DNA of 64,000 nt, taken from Owenia fusiformis (lineage: Eukaryota; Annelida; Polychaeta; Sabellida; Oweniidae). Below, in pieces: positions 4,992-61,048 of the stretch. The stretch is from the NCBI GenBank assembly GCA_903813345.2, contig CAIIXF020000005.1, positions 23,191,375 to 23,255,374 of the forward strand. The letters run 5' to 3'. The notes below the pieces were generated by a model, which worked only from the letters and a program-made list of their open reading frames with translations, was not told where the DNA came from and ran no database searches. The translations under genes were made by a program, and so were the position numbers. The first letter of the stretch is position 1. Every line of letters begins with the position of its first letter.

Positions 4992-6186
4992 AGTTTAGGT
5001 GAAATACAATATACGATAATTTTGAAACTACTGTGTTGATCGAATATTTGATATTTATAAGGAAATAATATAAGGAGAGAATCCATATGTACTACAGTAA
5101 ATGTATCATTATAAGGCAAATAGACCCCACATACTTACCACAATGATTTCATTTATTACATTATGACTGAGACACCATTCGGGTACATCCGCATCAGAAA
5201 TTCTGTGACCACTTTTTATTTTCAGGTAAACACGTTGATTTAAAACATATTTATAGTATAAGATTCTTGACTTCTCTTTAGTGATTTCACAATCTACTTT
5301 GACCAAAACATTAACTTGACATTTCTGCAATTGGCTAAAGCCAGTATCTGCTATTCTTACTTATTTTCTTTTTTTACTCAAAATCAACTTGATTTTTTAT
5401 GCTTACCAACCAGCAATACCTTAAATAAACACTTGTCTGTTAGATACTGCACTACTACTACTACCTGCATACACTTTTCTATCATTTTGTAAAACGATTA
5501 CCAAGATGTTGGAGTTGAATGTGATGCTGGTTAAAAACAGATTAAGTCTCAAGGTCTTGTGTTGCCCATCTTGATATCTCTACTTTGTTTTTATCTCTGC
5601 CCTTGTTTCACACCTTGTACAATCTGACATTCCAATCCAAGACCTAAACAAACTAGAAACACGTGTTTCTGGCCTCAGCAACCTGGAGTTACACATGTTG
5701 ATAAAATCTACCACATGTGTTTTCTCAAATTTATTTACATATACAATGGTCTCGACTGTGTGATTCTCATTTTTATTCTTATACTTGTTATGAAAAAAAT
5801 TCAACTGAAGAAATAAGTATGCGTATAGCTAGGAATTCCAAGGAATGATGATCTCATTCACGTATGATCTTTATAAGCCTTAGCTATTTATTCAGGGTTA
5901 TATTTTGGCCTTCTCTAAAACCGAAACACCGAAGTAGTAACGAACGACCAATATTTGGACCATGATACCATGATTCAGTGAGCCCAGTGATAACATGAAA
6001 GCAATGACACCACAAATTAGTGATACCTCCTGTTTATGGATGTGACCCTTGGCACGTGGTCACAATACTGTTGCATTGCAAGTGCAGTAGGCAGGTAATT
6101 CAAATGGTACCATTGTATGGTGTTTAAGCTGCTTCTTTATACGGTACATTAAATATTCCATAAATCCCAAATAAAACAAACAATTC
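4992..6186. other. Intergenic, no gene recognised
   Basis: AT-rich, with no frame above 75 codons, and no protein family, RNA gene or clear inverted repeat seen. Confidence 0.6.
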
Positions 6187-6802
6187 TACGCTCGCCGTAG
6201 AATTTCTGCGGTCGGATACTTTTGCAGTCACATTTCCTACGGCAGCCGCACGGCGAATTTTGAATTTCTATCGATAAACGTTAATGTGTATTTCTATTTA
6301 ATTTAAATCAGTACAATTTATAAATAATATTTATAGTGCTAGGGTCAAATAAAAAGAGTTAAGTGATACGTTGACCAATAGTAACTTAATCTTTTGTAAT
6401 ATAGGTTGCTGTGGTATCAGTGATCTTACATCAAAAACTATACCTATTACTTTGTGTTCACAGCAAAGATATGCCAGCAACTGGAAAACTGTTTCCCGAA
6501 TGTACATAACCTATCAAAACAATACGACAGATAAAGTCGTAAACCCAACGTGCGTCCACCATGGGACCGTTCTGCAATCTGGCAATGACCTGTTGATTTC
6601 TACGGGGACCGCAAAAATGAACAAATATTATAACTCCAAGTTATACCTTCTACTACTACCCTGCGGCCTATAAACAACTGGATACGCCGTACAGAGACCG
6701 CAAGGCGATCGTAGTTTTCCTACGCTCGCCGCAGAAAATCACTGATTTAATTGATCTGCGGTCGACTTACGGCCGCCGTACAACAAATGTGACTGGTGTG
6801 TT
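6187..6802. mobile_element. MITE-like element, copy A of the TGTGACTGGGGTG family
   Basis: This region is homologous, in reverse orientation, to 41,445-41,986. Shared landmarks include CTCGCCGTAGAATTTCTGCG (reverse complement in the other copy), a GGTTGCTGTGG block, a TGTGTTCACAGCA block and ACGGGGACCGCA. The ends carry CTACGGCG-type motifs and finish in AATGTGACTGGTGTGTT. The 100-codon open frame inside lies wholly within repeat sequence and is not credible as a gene. The internal region is richer in CpG than its flanks. Confidence 0.7.
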
Positions 6803-22590: not shown

Positions 22591-22832
22591 ATGAGGGTAA
22601 TTAGTGAAACAATCTATCTGTTTTGTAAAGAACTGTAGTAGTTTATCATCAAACGTTCACAACAAAATTCACATTGAATAAATTATTTTTTTGAAATTTC
22701 AAGGCAGGATATGCAAAATTGACCGAGTTATTCAACTTTTCTTCGGTCCTGTTTTTGACACCATGTACCTACCTTCAAGACTTATAAAAGAGAACTTTAG
22801 TGATACAAAGTGCCCGTGTATTAGACTAGACA

Positions 22833-23052
22833 TGCCTCTTATTTCCTCTACTTCACGTGTATCAGACTATGCCGCTCATTTCCTCTACCTTCCCGTGTAT
22901 TAGACTATTTAAAGGCCCTAGACATGCCGCTCATTTTCAATACCTCCCCGTGTATTAGATTATGTAAAGGCCCTATGCCGCTCATTTCCTCTACTTCACG
23001 TGTATTAGACTATTCAAAGGCCCTAGACATGCCGCTCATTTCCTCTACCTCT
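22833..23052. repeat. Tandem repeat, ~50-55 bp units, about 4.3 copies
   Basis: Units begin TGCCGCTCATTTCCTCTAC (first unit TGCCTCTTATTT) at 22,833, 22,870, 22,925, 22,976 and 23,030. They contain CGTGTATTAGACTA and AAAGGCCCTA. Unit 1 is short (37 bp); later spacings are 55, 51 and 54 bp. Confidence 0.85.
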
Positions 23053-41444: not shown

Positions 41445-41986
41445 TTACACCCCAGTCACAGGAGTTATAATATTTGTTCATTTCTGCGGTCCCCGTAGAA
41501 ATCAACTGGCCGTTGCCAGACCAAAGAACGGTTCCACGGTAGCCACACATCGGGCTTATGTTGACTTGAGTTTGCCGTAGTCAGGTAGTGTTTTGATGGG
41601 TTATATACATTTGGAAACAGTTTTTAGGTCAGGTTTGCTGTCATATATTTGCTGTGAACACAACGCAATATACCTTTTGATGTTATGCCACAGCAACCTA
41701 TACTCAAAAAATAAAGTTACGAATGGTCAATGTAACATTCAACACTTTTTATTTGATACTCTATCATAGCACTATAAATAACATTTAAAAATTGTACTGA
41801 TGTAAATAAATTAAAAATTAGTATAAGGTTTATCAACAGAAATTCAAAATTCGCCTTGCGGCTGCCGTAGAAAATGTGACTACAAAAGTATCCGACCGCA
41901 GAAATTCTACGGCGAGCGTAGAAATGTTACTGAACGCAGAAATGATAGACCGCACGGTCGCCGTAGGAAATGTGACTGGGGTGTTA
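41445..41986. mobile_element. MITE-like element, copy B of the TGTGACTGGGGTG family
   Basis: The left end TTACACCCCAGTCACA and right end TGTGACTGGGGTGTTA are inverted (15 of 16). Inside lie paired CTACGG and CCGTAG motifs. The body is homologous in reverse to 6187-6802. No protein is encoded. The clear TIRs make this the better-preserved copy. Confidence 0.8.
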
Positions 41987-49549: not shown

Positions 49550-51538
49550 TGTTACTTCATTATTTTTTTTATTTTTTTTTATTCAAGTACTCATTTAATA
49601 CATTTCAAGTACAATATATAAAAGAATACAAATGTAATTTCACAAAAGTTTTATATGTAGAAATATGTACTATAAGTTTAAATAGATATAATTTTACATG
49701 ATCTTACAACTTGAACTTCATTCATACCCATTCAAATTCATTCATTCATGCATTCTCCCACTCACACGTTGACTTTTACATTGGTATATCTCTTCAATTA
49801 GAGTCCTAATGGACCATTTATTTTTATCAAACGAAACAGAAAATGTGGTGTTTTATTTATTTTTATTTATAAAAGTCTATATAGTGCATTTACATCGATA
49901 CCCCTTTGATCTAGGTGCTTAATGCTGTCTAGATACACTCTTAGATAATTGATCAATTTGAAAAAGTAAGGTATTTCACTTTCTAAAAATGATTTGTATA
50001 AAATATATTTCACAATCAGTATACATAAGTTAAGCTCATTGACTTTCTCTTCGTTCCGGGTGATACCTAATAAAATATTATTTTCAGTAACCTTTGATTC
50101 TTTATTTACTTTTTGTTTCCACCATTCAATAAATTGTTTCCATATATCTTTTGTTATTCTACAGTTCACGAGGATGTGCTTCATGGTATGGGTTTCATCA
50201 CACCATGGGCATTTGTCTGTCTGTGTAATGTTCATCATTTTTAACTTATTGTTGCATATTAATGTATTTGTCAATATTTTGTACTGGAAACTCCGAATTT
50301 TTGTTTCATATGTTACCTTTTTGGCAAGCGTATAATAGTATTTCATTTCTGTTTCCTTTACATCATTTTCTTGAATCCATTTTCTCAAAGATGTAGGTTT
50401 TTCTACCTCTTTTTCAAGGATTTTGTTATATATTGTTTTACATGTCAATTGACTGTGAAGCAGTAATGTTTTAATTGTGCATTTGTTTTTCAATCTGTTA
50501 TTTTTAAGATTTTTCCATGTTTTGGGAATAGCGCTAAGTATACTCGCATATTTCAAAAAGTCTATATGAATGCTAAATTTTTGTTCCAGTTCTGTCTTAG
50601 ATAAGAAGTTGTCATTTCTGTCTAAGATATCATGAATTTTAACAACTGCTAGATGCCATTTCTTGAAGTACAGCATTTTATTATTGACTAAAATATTTTT
50701 ATTATTCCATATGATTTCATTTTCAACATCATCCCAATTATTAACATTATGATGAGTTACTTCTGCCCATGTTTCTAGCATTGTCAAATAAAATTTAGGA
50801 ATTTCGTTATAGTTTTGAAAATACTTTATATGGTAGTTACACTTAGTGAGAAACTCAATTCCACCATGTTGTTTAATGAATAAATTTGGAATTTCTTTCC
50901 AAGATGATTGTTCTTTGTCTATCAATCGTTTTATCCAAGTGCATTTTAGGGATCTATCCATTATGATATAATCTTTCATTTTTAATCCGCCTTGTTCAAT
51001 TTCAGCAATAATTGATTTTCTTTTTACTTTTGGTGGTTTCTTTTTCCAAACAAATTCAAAAATTGTTTTGTTTATTTCTTGTAAAATCTGGGGTGGTATG
51101 TGCATAACTGAACTTACATATGTTAACTGAGAAATACCTAAAGATTTGATAATTTGAATTCTGCCTATTATTGTTAAATTTCTCAAGTTCCATAATCTTA
51201 TTTTATTTTTCATTTCTTTAATTTTCTTTGTGATGTTCAATTTTGATCTATCATCTGAATCATAGGTAAATGTTATTCCTAGAGCTTTTACACTAGTTTT
51301 TGATTTGATTCCATTTATATCTTGCTGTTTTTCCCGATCCCTTCCTATCCACATAACTTCAGTCTTTTCTTTGTTAATTTCTAGACCAGAACATTTTCCA
51401 AATTTTTCAACTAAATTTAAAGCATTATTTGTTGACTCCTGATCATTCAAAAATATGGTAGTGTCATCAGCATACTGACAAAGTTTGACTTCACATTCAT
51501 CTTTAATTGGAATTCCTTTTATGCTGTTATTTCATTAT
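49550..51538 (-). mobile_element. 5'-truncated L1/Tx1-like LINE with 14-bp target-site duplication
   Basis: The element body (about 49,564-51,524, minus) carries the 3' part of an RT ORF and a 3' A-rich tail, seen on the plus strand as T runs at 49,563-49,581. TGTTACTTCATTAT at 49,550-49,563 and TGTTATTTCATTAT at 51,525-51,538 match at 13 of 14 positions, the signature of target-primed reverse transcription. The 5' truncation falls just before the YADD box. The long open frame argues for a fairly young insertion. Confidence 0.85.
49867..51524 (-). pseudogene. LINE ORF2 C-terminal half, open ~550 codons
   Basis: Reading inward from the 5' truncation, the frame gives SIKGIPIKDECEVKLCQYADD, so the RT catalytic YADD box is present near 51,470. 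Next come CSGLEINKEKTEVMWIG and SVKALGITFTY (RT palm end), then a thumb-like LTIIGRIQIIKSLGISQLTY. The region around EFVWKKKPPKVKRKSI and EQGGLKMKDY is typical of L1/Tx1-type ORF2. The C-terminal knuckle is CPWCDETHTMKHILVNC. The endonuclease and N-terminal RT motifs are missing, so the copy cannot move by itself. No frameshift or stop interrupts what remains. The name L1/Tx1-like comes from motif style, not a search. Confidence 0.85.
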
Positions 51539-52153
51539 GATATACTATTGAATCTGCTATGTAACAAATGCGCCGGGTGTGTGAGTAGCATGGTGTTACT
51601 TCTCGAAGACAGTTTGGCCAGAGAGTAGTAACATACATACATGCTAAAGGTGGGCAGTCCCATAACTAAAAATAAAAACAGAAGTTCATGTCAAAACAAA
51701 CACGTCAGGCCAGGGTAAAACAATTCAAATAACACACTTTTATAGAGTATAAAGATTTGCATTATTGTTGCTGTGAGCGTAACGGACTCAACTTTAGTGA
51801 AGGTAATGAAAAGCCACAATGTCCTATCGCTGTGGGTTGTTTCTATCAGATGTATTTTTATACATTAAATCTTATTTTATTAATCTCCTTTTTACAAAAT
51901 TTTCATTTTTACGAAGTTTGAGTTCCCGTTCTCGATACCCCTCCCCCTTGTACTAAGAGTCCGTTAAAATGAAAAGGACTGCATGTAATTTAATAATAAT
52001 GAACAGTCACGCTAACTTAGTACCCCTGACACGTGAATGATGCAGTCATATTTTTACTTTATGTTTGCAATGGAACAACTATTCTTATTGAAATTTTCAA
52101 GATTTATTCTACAGACAATTTCAAACATGGAAAATAAATATATATATACTTCA
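51539..52153. other. Intergenic, no gene recognised
   Basis: AT-rich with no frame of note and no repeat recognised. Confidence 0.6.
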
Positions 52154-53586
52154 TTGTCAATAAAATCCAGGTTTTTGCTTGAACAATTGAACTTTTAACG
52201 TCATTTCAAATATTGTAGGCCGCCTAAAGTCTTTCCAGATATATTTGTTGCCATATTAACAATTATGGCTGATAATATACAAATAGTGACTGCCATTGAG
52301 GGCAATAGTGTAAATTATTTCCCCGAGGGAATATCCTCTACAATGTAATATTCCCGAAGCCGCAGGCTGAGGGAATAGTACATTGTAGAGGATATTCCCA
52401 AGGGGAAATCATTTACACTATTGCTCGAAATTAGGCAGTCACTATTTGTTTTATTATATACCCTATACTGACTCTTGTCCCGTTTCCTTTGCGAAGACCA
52501 AAAAGGCTTAGAAAGCCCCCTCCCCGGGCCCATTGTTAGCATTATAAGCTCTGACGTCATCAGATGCTCAACAGAAATTTTTGCCTCTGAGACTCTCACT
52601 TAACAAATTCAATCGCGTTTAACACGCGGAATAGATTATCATAACACTTGAAATTACACAGACGTATTAAGCTTAGGGAACTTTATACACGTTGCTTATA
52701 CTGTATCGTTCACGCACGTCTGTCATGGTGAACGGAGTGGACTTGTGTTTGTGCTCATCCTCCATTTTTCTGTTTTTTGTCTGCGCAGTGATGATGCGCA
52801 GACGTTTCCAAGGGTAATAGAAGTTGCAATCGTGACGTCAGCGGGCAATAGTTCAAATGTATATTCCCGCTGACGTCACATTTGAGGGAATATAACTTTC
52901 CGAGGGAAATAGTAAATCTATTTCGGAACACGTGACTAGGTATTGACCAATCAGGATTAGTGTTACATATTGGGTATATAATAATTGACTTTAGTCATAT
53001 TCAATATAATTACAGTGCATTAGGCCAATAAAAACTTGTTGCCCTGGGTCTCGTTTTGTGAAGCGTTCCCTAGATTAAAACCAGGTAGAGGAGGTCAATC
53101 TTCTTGTCAACTGACACGAGTTCAACCCTATCGAACTGTTCAATGCAATACTGTCCAAAATGAAGTTAAACATTACGAATCTCCAACTTCAAGTATTCCC
53201 AGCATTAGATTCTTCAGAGATGTTAGTATATAGCTGTGTTAAATTATGTCATGAAATTGTCAAGGAAACCTGACACATTCAAAGCAAGGTACAATTTACA
53301 TGCCACAGGGTTGCAATCTGAGTGATGGTGGTGGAAAAGCCCAGTGGAGAAAAAGTGCTTTATCAGAGGAAATGAGACCCAGAGTGACAAGTTTTTCATT
53401 GGCCCAATGCACTGTAATAATATTCTTGAATATGACAAAAAGGAACAACAATAATTAGCCATAATTAATATGGCATCAAATATATCTGGAAAGACTTTAG
53501 GCGGCCAACAATTCAAAAGCTAGACAATCTCTGAAATGACGTTAAAAGTTCAATTGTTCAAGCAAAAACCTGTATTTTATTGACAG
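52154..53586. mobile_element. 1.43-kb compound foldback element
   Basis: The outer arms 52,154-52,270 and 53,456-53,586 are inverted; they share AGGTTTTTGCTTGAACAATT and GCCTAAAGTCTTTCCAGATA, and the right arm has about 15 extra bases. A second inverted pair joins about 52,997-53,060 and 53,360-53,440 (ACAGTGCATTAGGCCAAT type). A third, nearly perfect hairpin fills 52,281-52,448 (AGTGACTGCC against GGCAGTCACT, centre near 52,361). GAGGGAATAT recurs several times. No protein is encoded. It resembles nested or serially folded foldback DNA. Confidence 0.75.
52833..52983 (+). promoter_or_regulatory. Promoter-like cluster: CRE, CRE, E-box, CCAAT, TATA
   Basis: In order on the plus strand: TGACGTCA at 52,833-52,840 and 52,871-52,878 (inside an inverted pair GTGACGTCAGCGGG / CCCGCTGACGTCAC), CACGTG at 52,929-52,934, CCAAT at 52,947-52,951 and TATATAATA at 52,975-52,983. 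A further TGACGTCA is at 52,552-52,559. The order and spacing match a CREB/ATF-USF-NF-Y-TATA promoter. No convincing gene follows (the 65-codon frame at 53,036 is weak), so this may drive transcription of the foldback or be coincidence. Confidence 0.35.
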
Positions 53587-54271
53587 TGGAGTGTTTTCGA
53601 AAACCTGTCCGGGGTACTATGAATTCTTGATAATCATTTGGCGAATAGATATTTATAAACGATACAAAAAATAAAAAGTCCGAGTACTCTACTGGTGTCA
53701 GGCCGTGTGCAACAACAGGGTAGGTGACTTTTCTGAATTGTAATCCAATTGAAATCTGATCATGACTATGTAATCTTAATTCTCAGTTCATACATGATCA
53801 CAATAATCTTCTGATCACTGCAGGCCCGTAGTCAGGATTTGCCAAGGTCCTTGAAAAGTGCTCAAAATGGTGAAAAACTGCATGATTTTGGCCAGGGGGA
53901 GCGAACCCATCGAACCCCCCCCCCCCCTTGTTCTAATACATGCACCTAGTTTATCTAGTGCCAATACTATCTCAGAATTTGGTCTTGGGCACATATAATA
54001 GAAGTTTACATTATAATTCAAAAGTCGAAAATTTTCGGCACTAGCCAGCCACATAATTCTTACCTCAATTGATTCTGAACACCACCCAAAAAAGTTGCGA
54101 CTGCATCTAGTGTCAGTCTCTAAGAAGGTCTCTCGAGGTCAGAACCTTGGTACAAGATAACCACGTCGTGCAATCTTGATTCACAGGGTAATTATATCAT
54201 CACTTCCCGGATCTCTTCCAACTTCTACAATCATCTTGTAACCAGAAGATGCAGACTGTGCAATGCTTCTC
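53587..54271. other. Intergenic, no gene recognised
   Basis: It contains a run of 14 or so C near 53,916-53,930 preceded by GGCCAGGGGGAGCG. This resembles the G/C-run end of another DNA element; similar text (GTGAAAAACTG, ATGATTTTG) occurs near 13,130-13,160. No exon was recognised. Confidence 0.5.
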
Positions 54272-55075
54272 GACATGTGCAATCAGACCCTTAGCTATAG
54301 TCTTACATACACACCCGGACACATGTGCCATCAGACCATAAGTTTTACATGCCCACCCGGACACATGTGCCATCAGACCTCAAGTCTTACATGCACACCC
54401 GGGCACATGTGCCATCAGACCCCAACTCTTACATGCACACCCGGACACATGTGCCATCAGACCCCAAGTCTTACATGCACACTCGGGCACATGTGCCATC
54501 AGACCATAAGTCTTACATGCACACCCGGGCACATGTGCCATCAGACCCCAACTCTTACATGCACACCCGGACACATGTACCATCAGACCCCAAGTCTTAC
54601 ATGCACACTCGGGCACATGTGCCATCAGACCATAAGTCTTACATGCACACTCGGGCACATGTGCCATCAGATCCCAAGTCTTACATGCACACCCGGGCAC
54701 ATGTGCCATCAGACCCCAAGTCTTACATGCACACTCGGGCACATGTGCCATAAGATCCCAAGCCTTACATGCACACCCGGGCACATGTGCCATCAGACCA
54801 TAAGTCTTACATGCACACCCGGGCACATGTGCCATCAGACCCCAACTCTTACATGCACACCCGGACACATGTGCCATCAGACCCCAAGTCTTACATGCAC
54901 ACTCGGGCACATGTGCCATCAGACCATAAGTCTTGCATGCACACTCGGGCACATGTGCCATCAGATCCCAAGTCTTACATGCACACTCGGGCACATGTGC
55001 CATCAGACCCCAAGTCTTTCATGCACACTCGGGCACATGTGCCATCAGATCCCAAGTCTTACATGCACACCCGGG
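54272..55075. repeat. 42-bp minisatellite, ~19 units, one E-box palindrome per unit
   Basis: Eighteen full 42-bp units start at 54,320 (CACATGTGCCATCAGACC...), preceded by one longer divergent unit. Nearly every unit holds CACATGTG, and units after CCGGG have the 12-bp palindrome GGCACATGTGCC. Because 42 is divisible by 3, several frames on both strands stay open (307 codons plus, 207 codons minus); these look like repeat artefacts. Units 5-11 (54,488-54,781) and 12-18 (54,782-55,075) match variant by variant, indicating a 294-bp higher-order duplication. The array ends 1.55 kb upstream of the homeobox start codon. Confidence 0.95.
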
Positions 55076-56624
55076 CATGCACAACGATCCCCCAAAATAT
55101 TTAGCCGTTCTCAACCCCAAGACATGGGGAAATGGTTTGTTGGACTTGGCACAAGACCATTTCGGACATGGGTGAGCTTAGGCTAGCTTGTTCTACTTTA
55201 GTGTTTTCCAGCTTAAAATGCACGATTCTGATTGACCAAAGAGCGGTAAATAAATTTAACTATTGCCCATGCAATATCTACAAATTGACATCGATATTTT
55301 TCCATTTGGCGTCGGTTTTAAATGTCAGAACACCGTTTAAATAGCCAACCTCTTGACCACTTTCGGGTTTAATATCTGTACGGGGGTGCAGTCAATGCAT
55401 GTAGAAGTGTTACCCATGCCCTTGGGTGTAGCCTCTGGGGTGGATTCAAGGCTGAAAATAAACACCTATAAAGAATCTTGGCACCCGGGTCTTTTCATAT
55501 TTACAATGGCTTTTTCATTCAGTCTATTTCGTGTACAATTCACCAACCGAGCAAGTATGTTATTATGGTATAGTATTTCTTTGGTAGTTGTAAGACATTA
55601 ATGGGGGGGGGGTAATGAGTAGGACGAGCCAAAAAATGATATAATTTAAACAAATGGCTAAAGAAATAAGAAAATGGAGCAATCAAAACAATTTTTGTTT
55701 AAAACAAGTCTTTGAACCATGTTCAATAATGTTGTTTGTCTTTGTCAATATAAATATACCACTTGAATTATGTGGACGATTGCATGTCAGTGCATCATAT
55801 ATTTATTAATTTACATGACTATAACAAGAGAATCTATAGTTTAACTCATATTCCAAACGTCGAACAGTTTAAGCTTGTCTAAAAATGTATCAAAAATCTA
55901 ATAATTCACACAACCCAACGGTTTACCTTGTATTATCGGTTGAGGGTATAGAGTGTAATAGGCGTTAATAGGGCGTTTAATTGCTATTATTCGAAAACCA
56001 CTCACAACAATTATTGGATAAAAGAAAAACACATGTAATGTACTTATTGTAAACACCTAAGTAAACATATTGAAAGACGGAGCAATCATCAAACATAGTG
56101 TAATTGTCGGCTTTTCAATGGGGGCCCTAATTTACTCGATTATCAGCCCAGTATGTGGCTAATAGAGTAATATACTGTAGTAATTATGTTATTGTCAGGC
56201 GTTTAGCCGAGTCTTTCGTCTGGCTTCTTGTCGCCAGTGTCTCGCAAGCTTTAGGAGTTTGGGCAAACTTAGCCAATTACGCACCTTTGACTTGAATAGG
56301 TACATGGGCCCCCACTGTGCTAAACACAGTAAAGGTTTTGTTTGCCTCTGCAACTCGTGATCGGGATGTCTGAGCTTACTATTCCGAGGCGCCAGCGACG
56401 GGCAAAACCCGGGCAGATTTGTCTAGAAGCTCGACACCTAATATAAGTTTTAACAAGCTTTTCAGCAATAATTAATATGAGTGAGTATTGTGTGATCTAT
56501 GTCATTTCTGGCATTTCACATCTCATCGTCGAAGTAGCAACACGCCTGAGACATAAAAACAAAATAAAAAACAAATATAACACATCGGAAAAACAGGAAG
56601 CACCTTTCATAGAAGGTTACTAAA
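55076..56624. promoter_or_regulatory. Upstream region of the homeobox gene
   Basis: Non-coding DNA between the minisatellite and the homeobox ATG. It must contain the 5' UTR and promoter if transcription starts nearby, but no TATA box at a convincing distance was found. TAATTA occurs near 56,180. A more GC-balanced stretch lies at about 56,210-56,430. An in-frame TAG sits 15 bp before the ATG. A run of about ten G is at 55,602-55,611. Confidence 0.35.
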
Positions 56625-56805
56625 ATGGCGACTGGAAAATATACGTCGTTTTCGATTGATGCGATTCTTGGCTTGCGATCCAAAGTGGAGGATGCAAAGG
56701 ATGCACAGGGTGAAGGTGATGCAACTGTCTCTCAGAAACGAGAGTCTGTTCATCCAGCCTATACTCATCTTCTGGACCAAACAACTACAGTTTCTAGAAC
56801 ACTGG
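56625..56805 (+). CDS. Homeobox gene exon 1 (eh1 motif)
   Basis: Sixty codons plus one base, ending AACACTGG before the donor GTAAGT at 56,806. The exon ends in phase 1 and its last G joins AC from exon 2 to make an Asp codon. It encodes [17 protein letters not shown] and an Asp/Glu/Ser-containing stretch. Confidence 0.88.
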
Positions 56806-57932
56806 GTAAGTGTCAAATCTATACATCATTTTATGTTTACAACGTATTTTATCAGAGACACATAATGCGAACTGGCGACTTGGGTTTTGTGAATATGTTC
56901 GAGTTCTACATTTGTTTAATTATTCATTTACTGTTGTTGTTTGCATTGTTTATTTATGTTTTGTTGACTCTTTGAAACATGGAAATAACATTCTAGTTTG
57001 CTTGATTAAAGTTCCTGGTCCTGCAAACATATCCATTTCTTGAATTTTTGGTATTGCTGATTTACCACAAGTTATTATCGAAAAAATGTACGAACTGATA
57101 TTATGCTTATTTCGGTTAAAACACACCCGCTGAAAACCATAACACGAATGACATTCCATATCATTGTAAAGATGGTAACCGCAGATATTTTAATCATTTA
57201 TGTTTTTATATTCCAGACAATAGCAGCTATGTTAGTGAGCGACAGGTGCGAGCTGACAACACCTCCCCTACCCCCTCTCTCAACAGTATTGGAGAATCCG
57301 ACCACGATAGTCTCGCAAGTTATGCTGCAGACTCTGACACCGACTCAAACGGCGATACTCTCAATGAAAATGTTGACAATAGCGATAAGAAAAAGAAAAA
57401 CCGAACTGTATTCTCAAGGCGTCAGATTATTACCATGGAGACTGCTTTCAACAGTAAACGATATTTATCCACCCCCGAGAGGAACGCTCTGGCCCGGAGT
57501 CTAAACCTCAGTGACACACAAGTGAAAATATGGTTCCAAAACAGAAGAAATAAATGGAAGAAAATCGCAAACAGCTCCCCAGAAACTGATATCTATCAGC
57601 GCCAGCTAGTAGCGCTCCAAGACACTAGACTTGGATACAATCTATCAAGTGCCACATACCCTCCCACTCTTCAGCACATGCCACACATTCAACAGCCATT
57701 ACCATCTGTAGGTTGCAAAACGACTTATGTTGGGTCAAACATTGCGTCAATGACATCACATGTACCACATATGACGCCCACTATTCATGCGATATCATCA
57801 GCGCCATCTAGTATTTCGATGGGACACTACGCAAGTACTTTATCGACTGGACACTCAGTGTTTGCTACTGGGAAACATGGTTTGCACTTACAACAACAAT
57901 CTAATCTTATACGACGGACTTCTTTTTATTAA
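56625..57932 (+). CDS. HMX/NK5-like ANTP-class homeodomain transcription factor, two exons
   Basis: Spliced coding sequence 56,625-56,805 joined to 57,217-57,932 (298 residues). The start is the first ATG after an in-frame TAG, in an AAAATGG context. Exon 1 carries FSIDAILGL at residues 9-17, an eh1 motif of the type that binds Groucho/TLE corepressors. After an acidic, Ser-rich linker, the homeodomain spans about residues 119-178, opening [12 protein letters not shown], with KRYLS in helix 2 and [11 protein letters not shown] in helix 3 (Gln50, Asn51, Asn54). RTVFSR, KRYLS and Asn54 point to the HMX family. Oddities are Met at homeodomain position 16, usually Leu, and no recognisable HMX tail after the domain. 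It should act in the nucleus, probably as a repressor. NK1/NK7-like assignment is less likely. Confidence 0.9.
56806..57216 (+). other. Homeobox gene intron, 411 bp
   Basis: Starts GTAAGT and ends in a T-rich tract followed by TTCCAG. Joining across it preserves the reading frame into the homeodomain exon. Small open frames inside are chance. Confidence 0.88.
57217..57932 (+). CDS. Homeobox gene exon 2 (homeodomain and C-terminus)
   Basis: Begins AC after the acceptor at 57,215-57,216. It encodes the acidic linker (about residues 87-117), the Lys-rich entry to the homeodomain and the 60-residue domain. A roughly 120-residue tail rich in Ser, Thr, His and Pro follows, ending LIRRTSFY then TAA. 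Confidence 0.92.
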
Positions 57933-59165: not shown

Positions 59166-60190
59166 TTATGAATAGTTTTGAGCAACATCTAATAGACTTT
59201 GTCTAATAAAATCATCTGTGGAGACATCTTCATCATCGTTTTGTGTATCGATGTTCCTCGTCCTAATATAGGGTATTAACATACTTATGCCGCTTAGAGC
59301 AATCACAGTTCCACCGAGATAGAAAGATCCGGCGTATTGTTGGGTTCGGTCAAACATCATTCCTGCTATCGGTGCCCCTGGTAAAATACCCGCTGCACAA
59401 CATATACATAGAAGTCCATATCCCGTCGAAAGGTCTTTCTGACCCAAGAATTTACGCACGATCTCTGGAGCGAATACTCCAAAAGCAGCGCTACACATTC
59501 CAAAAACGACTGCAAACGATACTAATAAAGGATACACATTCTGTAGCGGAACTGTCAACATTAATAAACCAGTTATTGCAAATGTTGAACCGTAGAGAAG
59601 TATAACGTTTGTACATGGATGCCTTATGGTTGATAAAGCTCCAAAAATAAATTTTCCTACTAAATTGGAAAATCCGATAATTGAAAATAAAAATGCCGCC
59701 TGCTCTGGTTCGATTCCAATGGTGATTGCATACTCTGCAAAATGCACATACAGAATAGAATGCCCAATACAATAAAGGAAGTTGGTCATGCACATTATCA
59801 TAAAATTCAAGTTCAGAAAGACACGTGCATTAAAAACCGTTGTTTCTGTACTAACATTTTTTACTGTTGTGTCGTCAGTGGCTTCAGCAACGCTTTTATA
59901 TTCAATGTCATCATGCATATCATCTTTCATGCGACGTGTAGGGTCATCACTTATATTCTTAGGTCTCATAATGGCACCACAAACACATATATTGAAGGTT
60001 ATAGCGGCCAAGATTAACATACACCCTCTCCAACCGAAGATGGCTGTGAGTGTGGTGATCAATGGCGGATAAAGGAACATCCCTATTCCAACTCCAGATG
60101 AAGATAATCCAACAGCCAATGTCAGGTTCTTTGAAAAGTAGACGGCTAAAACCGTTATTGTAGGAATGTAACAAATGCCAAGACCACAAC
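59166..60190 (-). CDS. MCT-like gene, terminal exon
   Basis: Acceptor CATTTCAG then GTTGTGGTCTTGG. The exon is 1025 bp and contains TM4 to TM12 and the stop. The cytosolic loop (about 40 residues around DDMHDDIEYKSVAEATDD) is short compared with many MCTs. The C-terminus ends in LLDVAQNYS. Confidence 0.9.
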
Positions 60191-60687
60191 CTGAAATGAA
60201 ATCCACCGAAGATCAATATATACAATTAATTCAAAACAAAGAATCGATATAGAACTGTTTATCCTTATATTTTTATGCATATTTCTCTCGGTTTAGGGAA
60301 GCTAAGGCCACCACACGGTTGCCGTATATCGAAATGTGACTTTGACTCAGTGTTCAGAAAAGGAAAGTGTGGAGCTTATAATTTTATTATTTGGGAGAAT
60401 TGTCATTATGTGGTAAACCTCGTCTTATAACGACAAAATCAATTTCTAAATGCATCAGTACACAATCTTACTATTTACGAGTTCGAGAATGTTATGAAAG
60501 CATAATAATTGTACAAATTCTCCTAAACTGAATGGTAGGATACCTGTTAAAAATCCAAATGTTATATATAAGTGATATATATTTGTTGAAAGGGCACTCG
60601 TGGCTAATCCTATAGCTGCCACGACGCCACCTATCATCATTGTTGTTCTATATCCTAACTTGTTGGTCAGCATGCTCGCCACTGGAC
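59166..60687 (-). CDS. Monocarboxylate transporter-like (SLC16/MCT, MFS) gene, last two exons
   Basis: Exons 60,687-60,544 and 60,190-59,166 on the minus strand give the part from TM2 to the C-terminus (about 389 residues); the N-terminal exon with the usual DGGWGW motif is not in view. Family motifs: GPVASMLTNKLGYR before TM3, GCGLGICYIPTITVLAVYFSK in TM4, SSGVGIGMFLYPPL, and GWRGCMLI in TM5. A polar cytosolic loop with many Asp and Lys follows, then TM7-TM12 ending in GAPIAGMMFDRTQQYAGSF. In TM8 the sequence is GFSNLVGKFIFG. MCT1-type carriers have Asp and Arg at the places where this has Asn and Lys, so lactate/proton coupling should not be assumed. Likely a plasma-membrane carrier of unknown substrate. 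Confidence 0.88.
60191..60543 (-). other. MCT-like gene intron, 353 bp
   Basis: GTATCC donor and TTTCATTTCAG acceptor on the minus strand. It holds a short solo end of the MITE family (CCGTATATCGAAATGTGACT near 60,322-60,341). Confidence 0.8.
60544..60687 (-). CDS. MCT-like gene, internal exon (144 bp, phase 1-1)
   Basis: Acceptor ATTGTAG precedes GTCCAGTGG, and donor ACAG|GTATCC follows at 60,543. It encodes GPVASMLTNKLGYRTTMMIG and the next hydrophobic helix to FGFLTG. Both ends are phase 1, splitting Gly codons as G|GT, so the frame continues exactly into the next exon. Confidence 0.88.
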
Positions 60688-61048
60688 CTACAATTACAAG
60701 ATTGACATATCTATTCAAAATCACAAGACGATGATATGATTAAACATTATCTGAAGTTATTCATGAGGCATATTTCATATGGCATGTTCAGAAATATAGA
60801 CCTTTATCCTATGCCAACTATAGTTTTAGGGACATATGTTGGTAAGGTATATCCCGTATCCTGATTTTGAGGTTTCCATATCCAGAACCTCCATATCTCC
60901 CGCCATATCTCCCGCTTCGGTGCATATCTTCCCGCTTCCGGTAATGCAGTAAAATGACTTTGCATATGAATGATTTGTTTATTTTTTACACCTTGTACTA
61001 TTGAAATGGCCATATGCCCCTGAAAACTCAACTTGGTATGTGATAAAG

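Follow-up and report, generated by a model that had tools for sequence, protein, structure and literature searches.

A tandem repeat with a 42-bp period, found upstream of a homeobox gene in the annelid Owenia fusiformis, carries an E-box motif in almost every unit. The question raised by this locus is whether these motifs form a regulatory element acting on the gene or were multiplied incidentally, together with the repeat. The window, the whole stretch of DNA that was analysed, is 64,000 nucleotides (64 kb) long. The array is very probably an ordinary local minisatellite in non-coding animal DNA, beside repeat-rich sequence, with E-boxes that are incidental to it. Its parts are the following:

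54273–54290, no strand: worn half-unit at the left edge, identical to the consensus at 17 of 18 bases (local alignment)
54299–55077, no strand: 42-bp minisatellite, with 18 full units followed by a partial one of 23 bp (TRF, unit table)

TRF describes the tandem array at 54299–55077 with a period of 42, 18.5 copies, a 91% match and 0% indels, which bears out the 42-bp minisatellite proposed in an earlier sequence-only reading of this DNA; its score of 1285 is the top one among the 13 TRF rows for the 64-kb window. The units, laid in register, give the consensus AGTCTTACATGCACACCCGGGCACATGTGCCATCAGACCCCA. A minisatellite is described in a review of promoter repeats as a series of near-identical copies of a unit longer than 10 bp, arranged head-to-tail (PMC3899988), and the array consists of head-to-tail units longer than 10 bp. 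The limits given in the earlier reading (54272–55075) were right, the start at 54272 being accounted for by the worn half-unit at 54273–54290. At the right edge, the array stops abruptly after the partial unit, which is perfect over its 23 bp, and no wear is seen, unlike at the left edge; this counts against an ordinary minisatellite. A search for further copies of the 42-bp unit in the 64-kb window gave none that was significant (the best E-value of those shown was 0.36). The exact pattern CGGRCACATGTGCCATCAGA had 0 matches in viral and bacterial/archaeal contigs, a search uninformative on animal relatives.

The internal structure of the array points to growth through the duplication of units and blocks, and two blocks, of three and seven units, can be distinguished:

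54383–54508, no strand: 3-unit block (units 2–4), recurring at 54509–54634 and 54803–54928
54467–54760, no strand: 7-unit block (units 4–10), with a tandem duplicate at 54761–55054 (units 11–17)

The copy of the 3-unit block at 54509–54634 (units 5–7) differs in 1 of 126 bases and the copy at 54803–54928 (units 12–14) in 0 of 126; the 7-unit block and its duplicate differ in 7 of 294. The mean distance per unit is 1.9 differences at lag 7 versus 2.8–3.7 at all remaining lags up to 12. With the unit order shuffled 20,000 times, the similarity at lag 7 has a permutation P of 0.0003, and that at any lag from 1 to 9 a P of 0.0018. Duplication of the 7-unit block accounts for the array's second half. 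Four of the nine private changes are located in the two leftmost units, which adjoin the worn half-unit. Block duplications and a worn edge are an ordinary pattern for a minisatellite. The array, known from one sequence only, shares head-to-tail near-identical units longer than 10 bp and multi-unit block duplications with minisatellite (VNTR) loci and shows no essential difference from them.

These data suggest the following history. A single 42-bp unit, containing CACATGTG by chance, would have been amplified; the array would then have lengthened through duplication of the 3-unit and 7-unit blocks, the copying proceeding by replication slippage or by unequal exchange, and the left edge would have decayed meanwhile. 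Judging from the comparison of units, all sites in the array go back to a single ancestral unit that was multiplied via block duplication, so that the E-box count is a count of copies and not of independent sites.

The motif itself is located as follows:

54320–55041, no strand: CACATGTG octamers, 17 exact copies, present once in every unit but the one starting at 54551 (sequence matches)

An E-box site had been claimed for each 42-bp unit, and the exact octamer is indeed intact in 17 of the 18 full units; in the remaining one, which starts at 54551, CACATGTA takes the place of CACATGTG. The octamers in the array are spaced by 42 bp, with a single 84-bp step. The window contains 18 exact matches, 17 in the array and one distant at 5712; 100 whole-window shuffles average 1.25 and never exceed 4. 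The earlier statement that the site is often part of a 12-bp palindrome also holds: GGCACATGTGCC is present in 13 of the 18 full units, and every one of the 13 copies in the window belongs to the array. The five units without it have GACACATGTGCC (four units) or GACACATGTACC (one unit). Between 54257 and 55090 there are 36 CANNTG hexamers (18 CACATG and 18 CATGTG); the density of E-box hexamers is 43 per kb in the array (36 in 834 bp) versus 4.7 per kb elsewhere in the window. The array is an E-box cluster beyond chance, though one that came about through the copying of one unit.

These features can also be read in another way, with the array as a bHLH-responsive enhancer tunable by copy number, in which bHLH dimers would all be recruited to the same face of the DNA, with the number of units setting the expression of the homeobox gene. 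The 17 intact octamers in 42-bp steps and the difference in E-box density argue for such an enhancer, and the derivation of every copy from one unit argues against it; on balance it is judged improbable. The structure of the site is a further point against it. CACATGTG consists of two E-box hexamers, CACATG and CATGTG, that overlap by four bases and are both non-palindromic; the dyad of the octamer, between CA and TG, is one base off the centre of either CANNTG hexamer. One bHLH dimer would presumably occupy either of the overlapping hexamers, never both simultaneously. Since the hexamers overlap, are non-palindromic and lie off-centre from the dyad, the array would offer about 18 possible bHLH binding positions, not 18 symmetric E-boxes. 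The earlier expression ‘palindromic E-boxes’ was loose wording, because the octamer dyad coincides with neither hexamer dyad: its count of about 18 sites stands, and the symmetric E-box gives way to two overlapping non-palindromic hexamers.

Outside the array, the window yields 3003 tiled stretches of 42 bp; an E-box hexamer is present in 16.7% of them, a 12-bp palindrome in 2.1% and CACATGTG in a single one. In dinucleotide shuffles of the unit (n = 5000), CANNTG occurs in 50%, CACATGTG in 1.7% and a 12-bp palindrome in 1.2%. The octamer is thus uncommon, a point against the incidental reading, yet both the octamer and the palindrome were picked after the data had been seen.

The sequence-only reading had further proposed that the period of 42 bp would place the sites on the same side of the helix. 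The 42-bp phasing was confirmed; a fixed helical phase is automatic in any tandem array free of indels and so comes at no cost, which also counts against the enhancer. By a rough estimate, about one period in ten would by chance come within 0.5 base of a multiple of 10.5 bp. The free phase and this chance of about one in ten make the helical argument for function weak. Nucleosomal DNA has about 10.2 bp per turn, and at this turn length 42 bp correspond to 4.12 turns.

Folding of two units as DNA gave −10.1 kcal/mol (z = −1.56); no strong case can be made for a selected single-strand hairpin, because 20 of 200 shuffles fold equally well or better. Alternating purine–pyrimidine runs of at least 10 are frequent in the array, which contains 35 of the 103 such runs in the window, and may indicate a Z-DNA tendency.

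Conservation of the site within the unit bears directly on the enhancer, and the site columns show no significant excess of it. Thirteen of the 42 columns of the unit are variable, compared with one of the eight in the octamer (hypergeometric P = 0.21, at the low power of 18 related units) and two of the 12 in the palindrome (P = 0.19, with the same 18 related units and low power); one of the nine private changes falls in the octamer (P = 0.47, also at low power). The best kept of the unit's 42 circular 8-mers are six, among them the octamer, each found intact in 17 units; 14 of the 42 circular 12-mers, including the palindrome, are intact in at least 13 units. The site leans to fewer changes, though not significantly and with low power. 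The octamer is situated where the unit varies least, in columns 22–33, which bear one singleton only; this is in favour of the enhancer, and because of it the octamer may be under weak constraint. The regulatory role, which the sequence-only reading itself offered as an inference, finds no positive support in the sequence: the sites are block copies of one unit, their columns are not significantly better kept (at low power), half of the dinucleotide shuffles contain CANNTG, and the phase is automatic.

The gene downstream of the array is represented by two features:

56625–56805, + strand: probable first coding exon of a homeobox gene (read from the sequence, limits inferred)
57390–57572, + strand: HMX-like homeodomain (Pfam PF00046, E = 3.5e-21)

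The probable first exon ends at a GTAAGT donor-like sequence; a Pfam search with this exon alone gave no match. The distance from the end of the array at 55077 to the probable ATG at 56625 is 1548 bp, in agreement with the earlier value of about 1.55 kb to the start codon. This proximity is another point for the enhancer; four E-box hexamers are present between the array and the ATG. The homeodomain has 39 of 60 residues identical to HMX versus 31 for NKX2-5 and 29 for MSX1, against hand-typed reference sequences. This identity is the likeness of the gene to HMX (Nkx5) genes; it differs from them in a search of solved structures, which ranks engrailed, GBX-1 and BarH-like 1 first and has no HMX name among the best 60 of 135. 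The gene is best described as HMX-like, a putative subfamily assignment from pairwise identities.

The hTERT intron 2 minisatellite VNTR2-1st is reported, in a 2021 paper, to have a 42-bp unit and enhancer activity. It is like the present array as a minisatellite in a regulated gene, with an E-box in many units, and differs in the E-box (CACGTG versus CACATG/CATGTG here), in position (an intron versus upstream of a gene), in the gene and in the organism; the resemblance would be one of possible function only, and no homology is claimed. Three publications provide precedents for the enhancer. Many repeats of the hTERT intron 2 minisatellite bear the MYC E-box CACGTG (PMC2915984), promoter tandem repeats that alter the number of factor sites have been reviewed (PMC3899988), and in a human survey commonly polymorphic minisatellites were enriched at transcription start sites and enhancers (PMC8096271). 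In the light of this last enrichment, nearness to a gene is unremarkable, yet it leaves room for function. Judged by titles and the beginnings of abstracts, none of the papers found on E-box or homeobox-enhancer minisatellites clearly deals with an array of this kind, which is not a claim of absence. A rotationally phased bHLH platform, with the number of units tuning the HMX-like gene, would be the invertebrate counterpart of E-box minisatellite enhancers and is considered very improbable.

In the preferred reading, that of an ordinary minisatellite, both the E-boxes and the proximity of the homeobox gene are probably incidental. The array may weakly bind bHLH proteins, as is expected of DNA of this kind, with no selected role behind it. 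Nothing tested in the sequence sets it apart from an ordinary minisatellite. Minisatellites with factor-like sites are already a known class, and the array as it stands matters little; if relatives had retained the octamer amid drift in the other columns, the locus would offer a clean natural test of the tuning of a developmental gene by repeat number and by the helical phasing of E-boxes.

The DNA upstream of the array is repeat-rich, which favours an ordinary minisatellite, and includes the following elements:

49867–51531, − strand: LINE-type reverse-transcriptase ORF (RVT_1, zf-RVT; Pfam)
52148–53592: inverted-repeat element with arms of 145 columns at 81% (alignment)
53821–53927: CAGGCCCGTAGTCAGGATTT (the CAGGCCCGTAG piece), followed some 95 bases later by a poly-C tract (read from the sequence)

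Repeat-bearing Helitron-like or MITE-like elements are classes with an internal tandem-repeat core, and the array could be the core of a transposable element, an explanation compatible with incidental E-boxes and regarded as unlikely. It is favoured by the inverted-repeat element at 52148–53592, just upstream, and by the CAGGCCCGTAG...poly-C piece at 53821, which may resemble one end of a DNA transposon. However, only two inverted pairs of at least 14 nt bracket the array in 53700–55700, one of 24 nt, mostly poly-C/poly-G (75%), and one of 14 nt (86%). There is no second CAGGCCCGTAG in the window at up to one mismatch, nor its 20-mer at up to three, and the 42-bp unit has no significant other copy in the 64 kb; for the downstream flank, two matches elsewhere in the window were obtained, both short and weak (E = 0.002 and 0.023). 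No convincing paired terminal repeats were found around the array in 53700–55700. In the inverted-repeat element at 52148–53592, the ungapped blocks of the arms reach 93–96%, and nested inverted pairs are present inside.

Since 42 bp equal 14 codons, the array might also encode a 14-residue protein repeat in the 314-codon open frame at 54242–55186, although this is extremely improbable. Several frames are open through the array; long open frames are found there because the unit length is divisible by three. In frame +1, synonymous changes make up 6 of the 15 variant types versus 27% expected, a somewhat high share that would suit a coding repeat, but this frame is hit by TAA in 5 of the 18 units (ATA at columns 40–42); in the long open frame the share is 2 of 15 versus 24% expected. 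Over the six frames, the synonymous share ranges from 13% to 40%, compared with 23–27% expected. No Pfam or NCBIfam match was obtained at E-values up to 0.001. The coding repeat was rejected on the basis of the missing synonymous excess in the long frame, the stops in frame +1 and the lack of a Pfam or NCBIfam family match.

E-boxes within a tandem repeat also occur elsewhere in the window, a point in favour of the incidental reading:

22828–23050: second, less regular tandem array with 38/55-bp units and two CACGTG sites (TRF)

This array lies some 34 kb from the sole homeodomain found by tblastn in the window. The window as a whole contains 17 CACGTG sites, versus a mean of 6.8 and a maximum of 14 in shuffles (n = 100), a mild excess that is spread out. 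Two copies of a dispersed inverted repeat, at 6179–6637 and 41461–41928, align over 484 columns with 79% identity. Beyond the homeobox gene, pieces of an MFS transporter are present in two ORFs on the minus strand, at 59166–60739.
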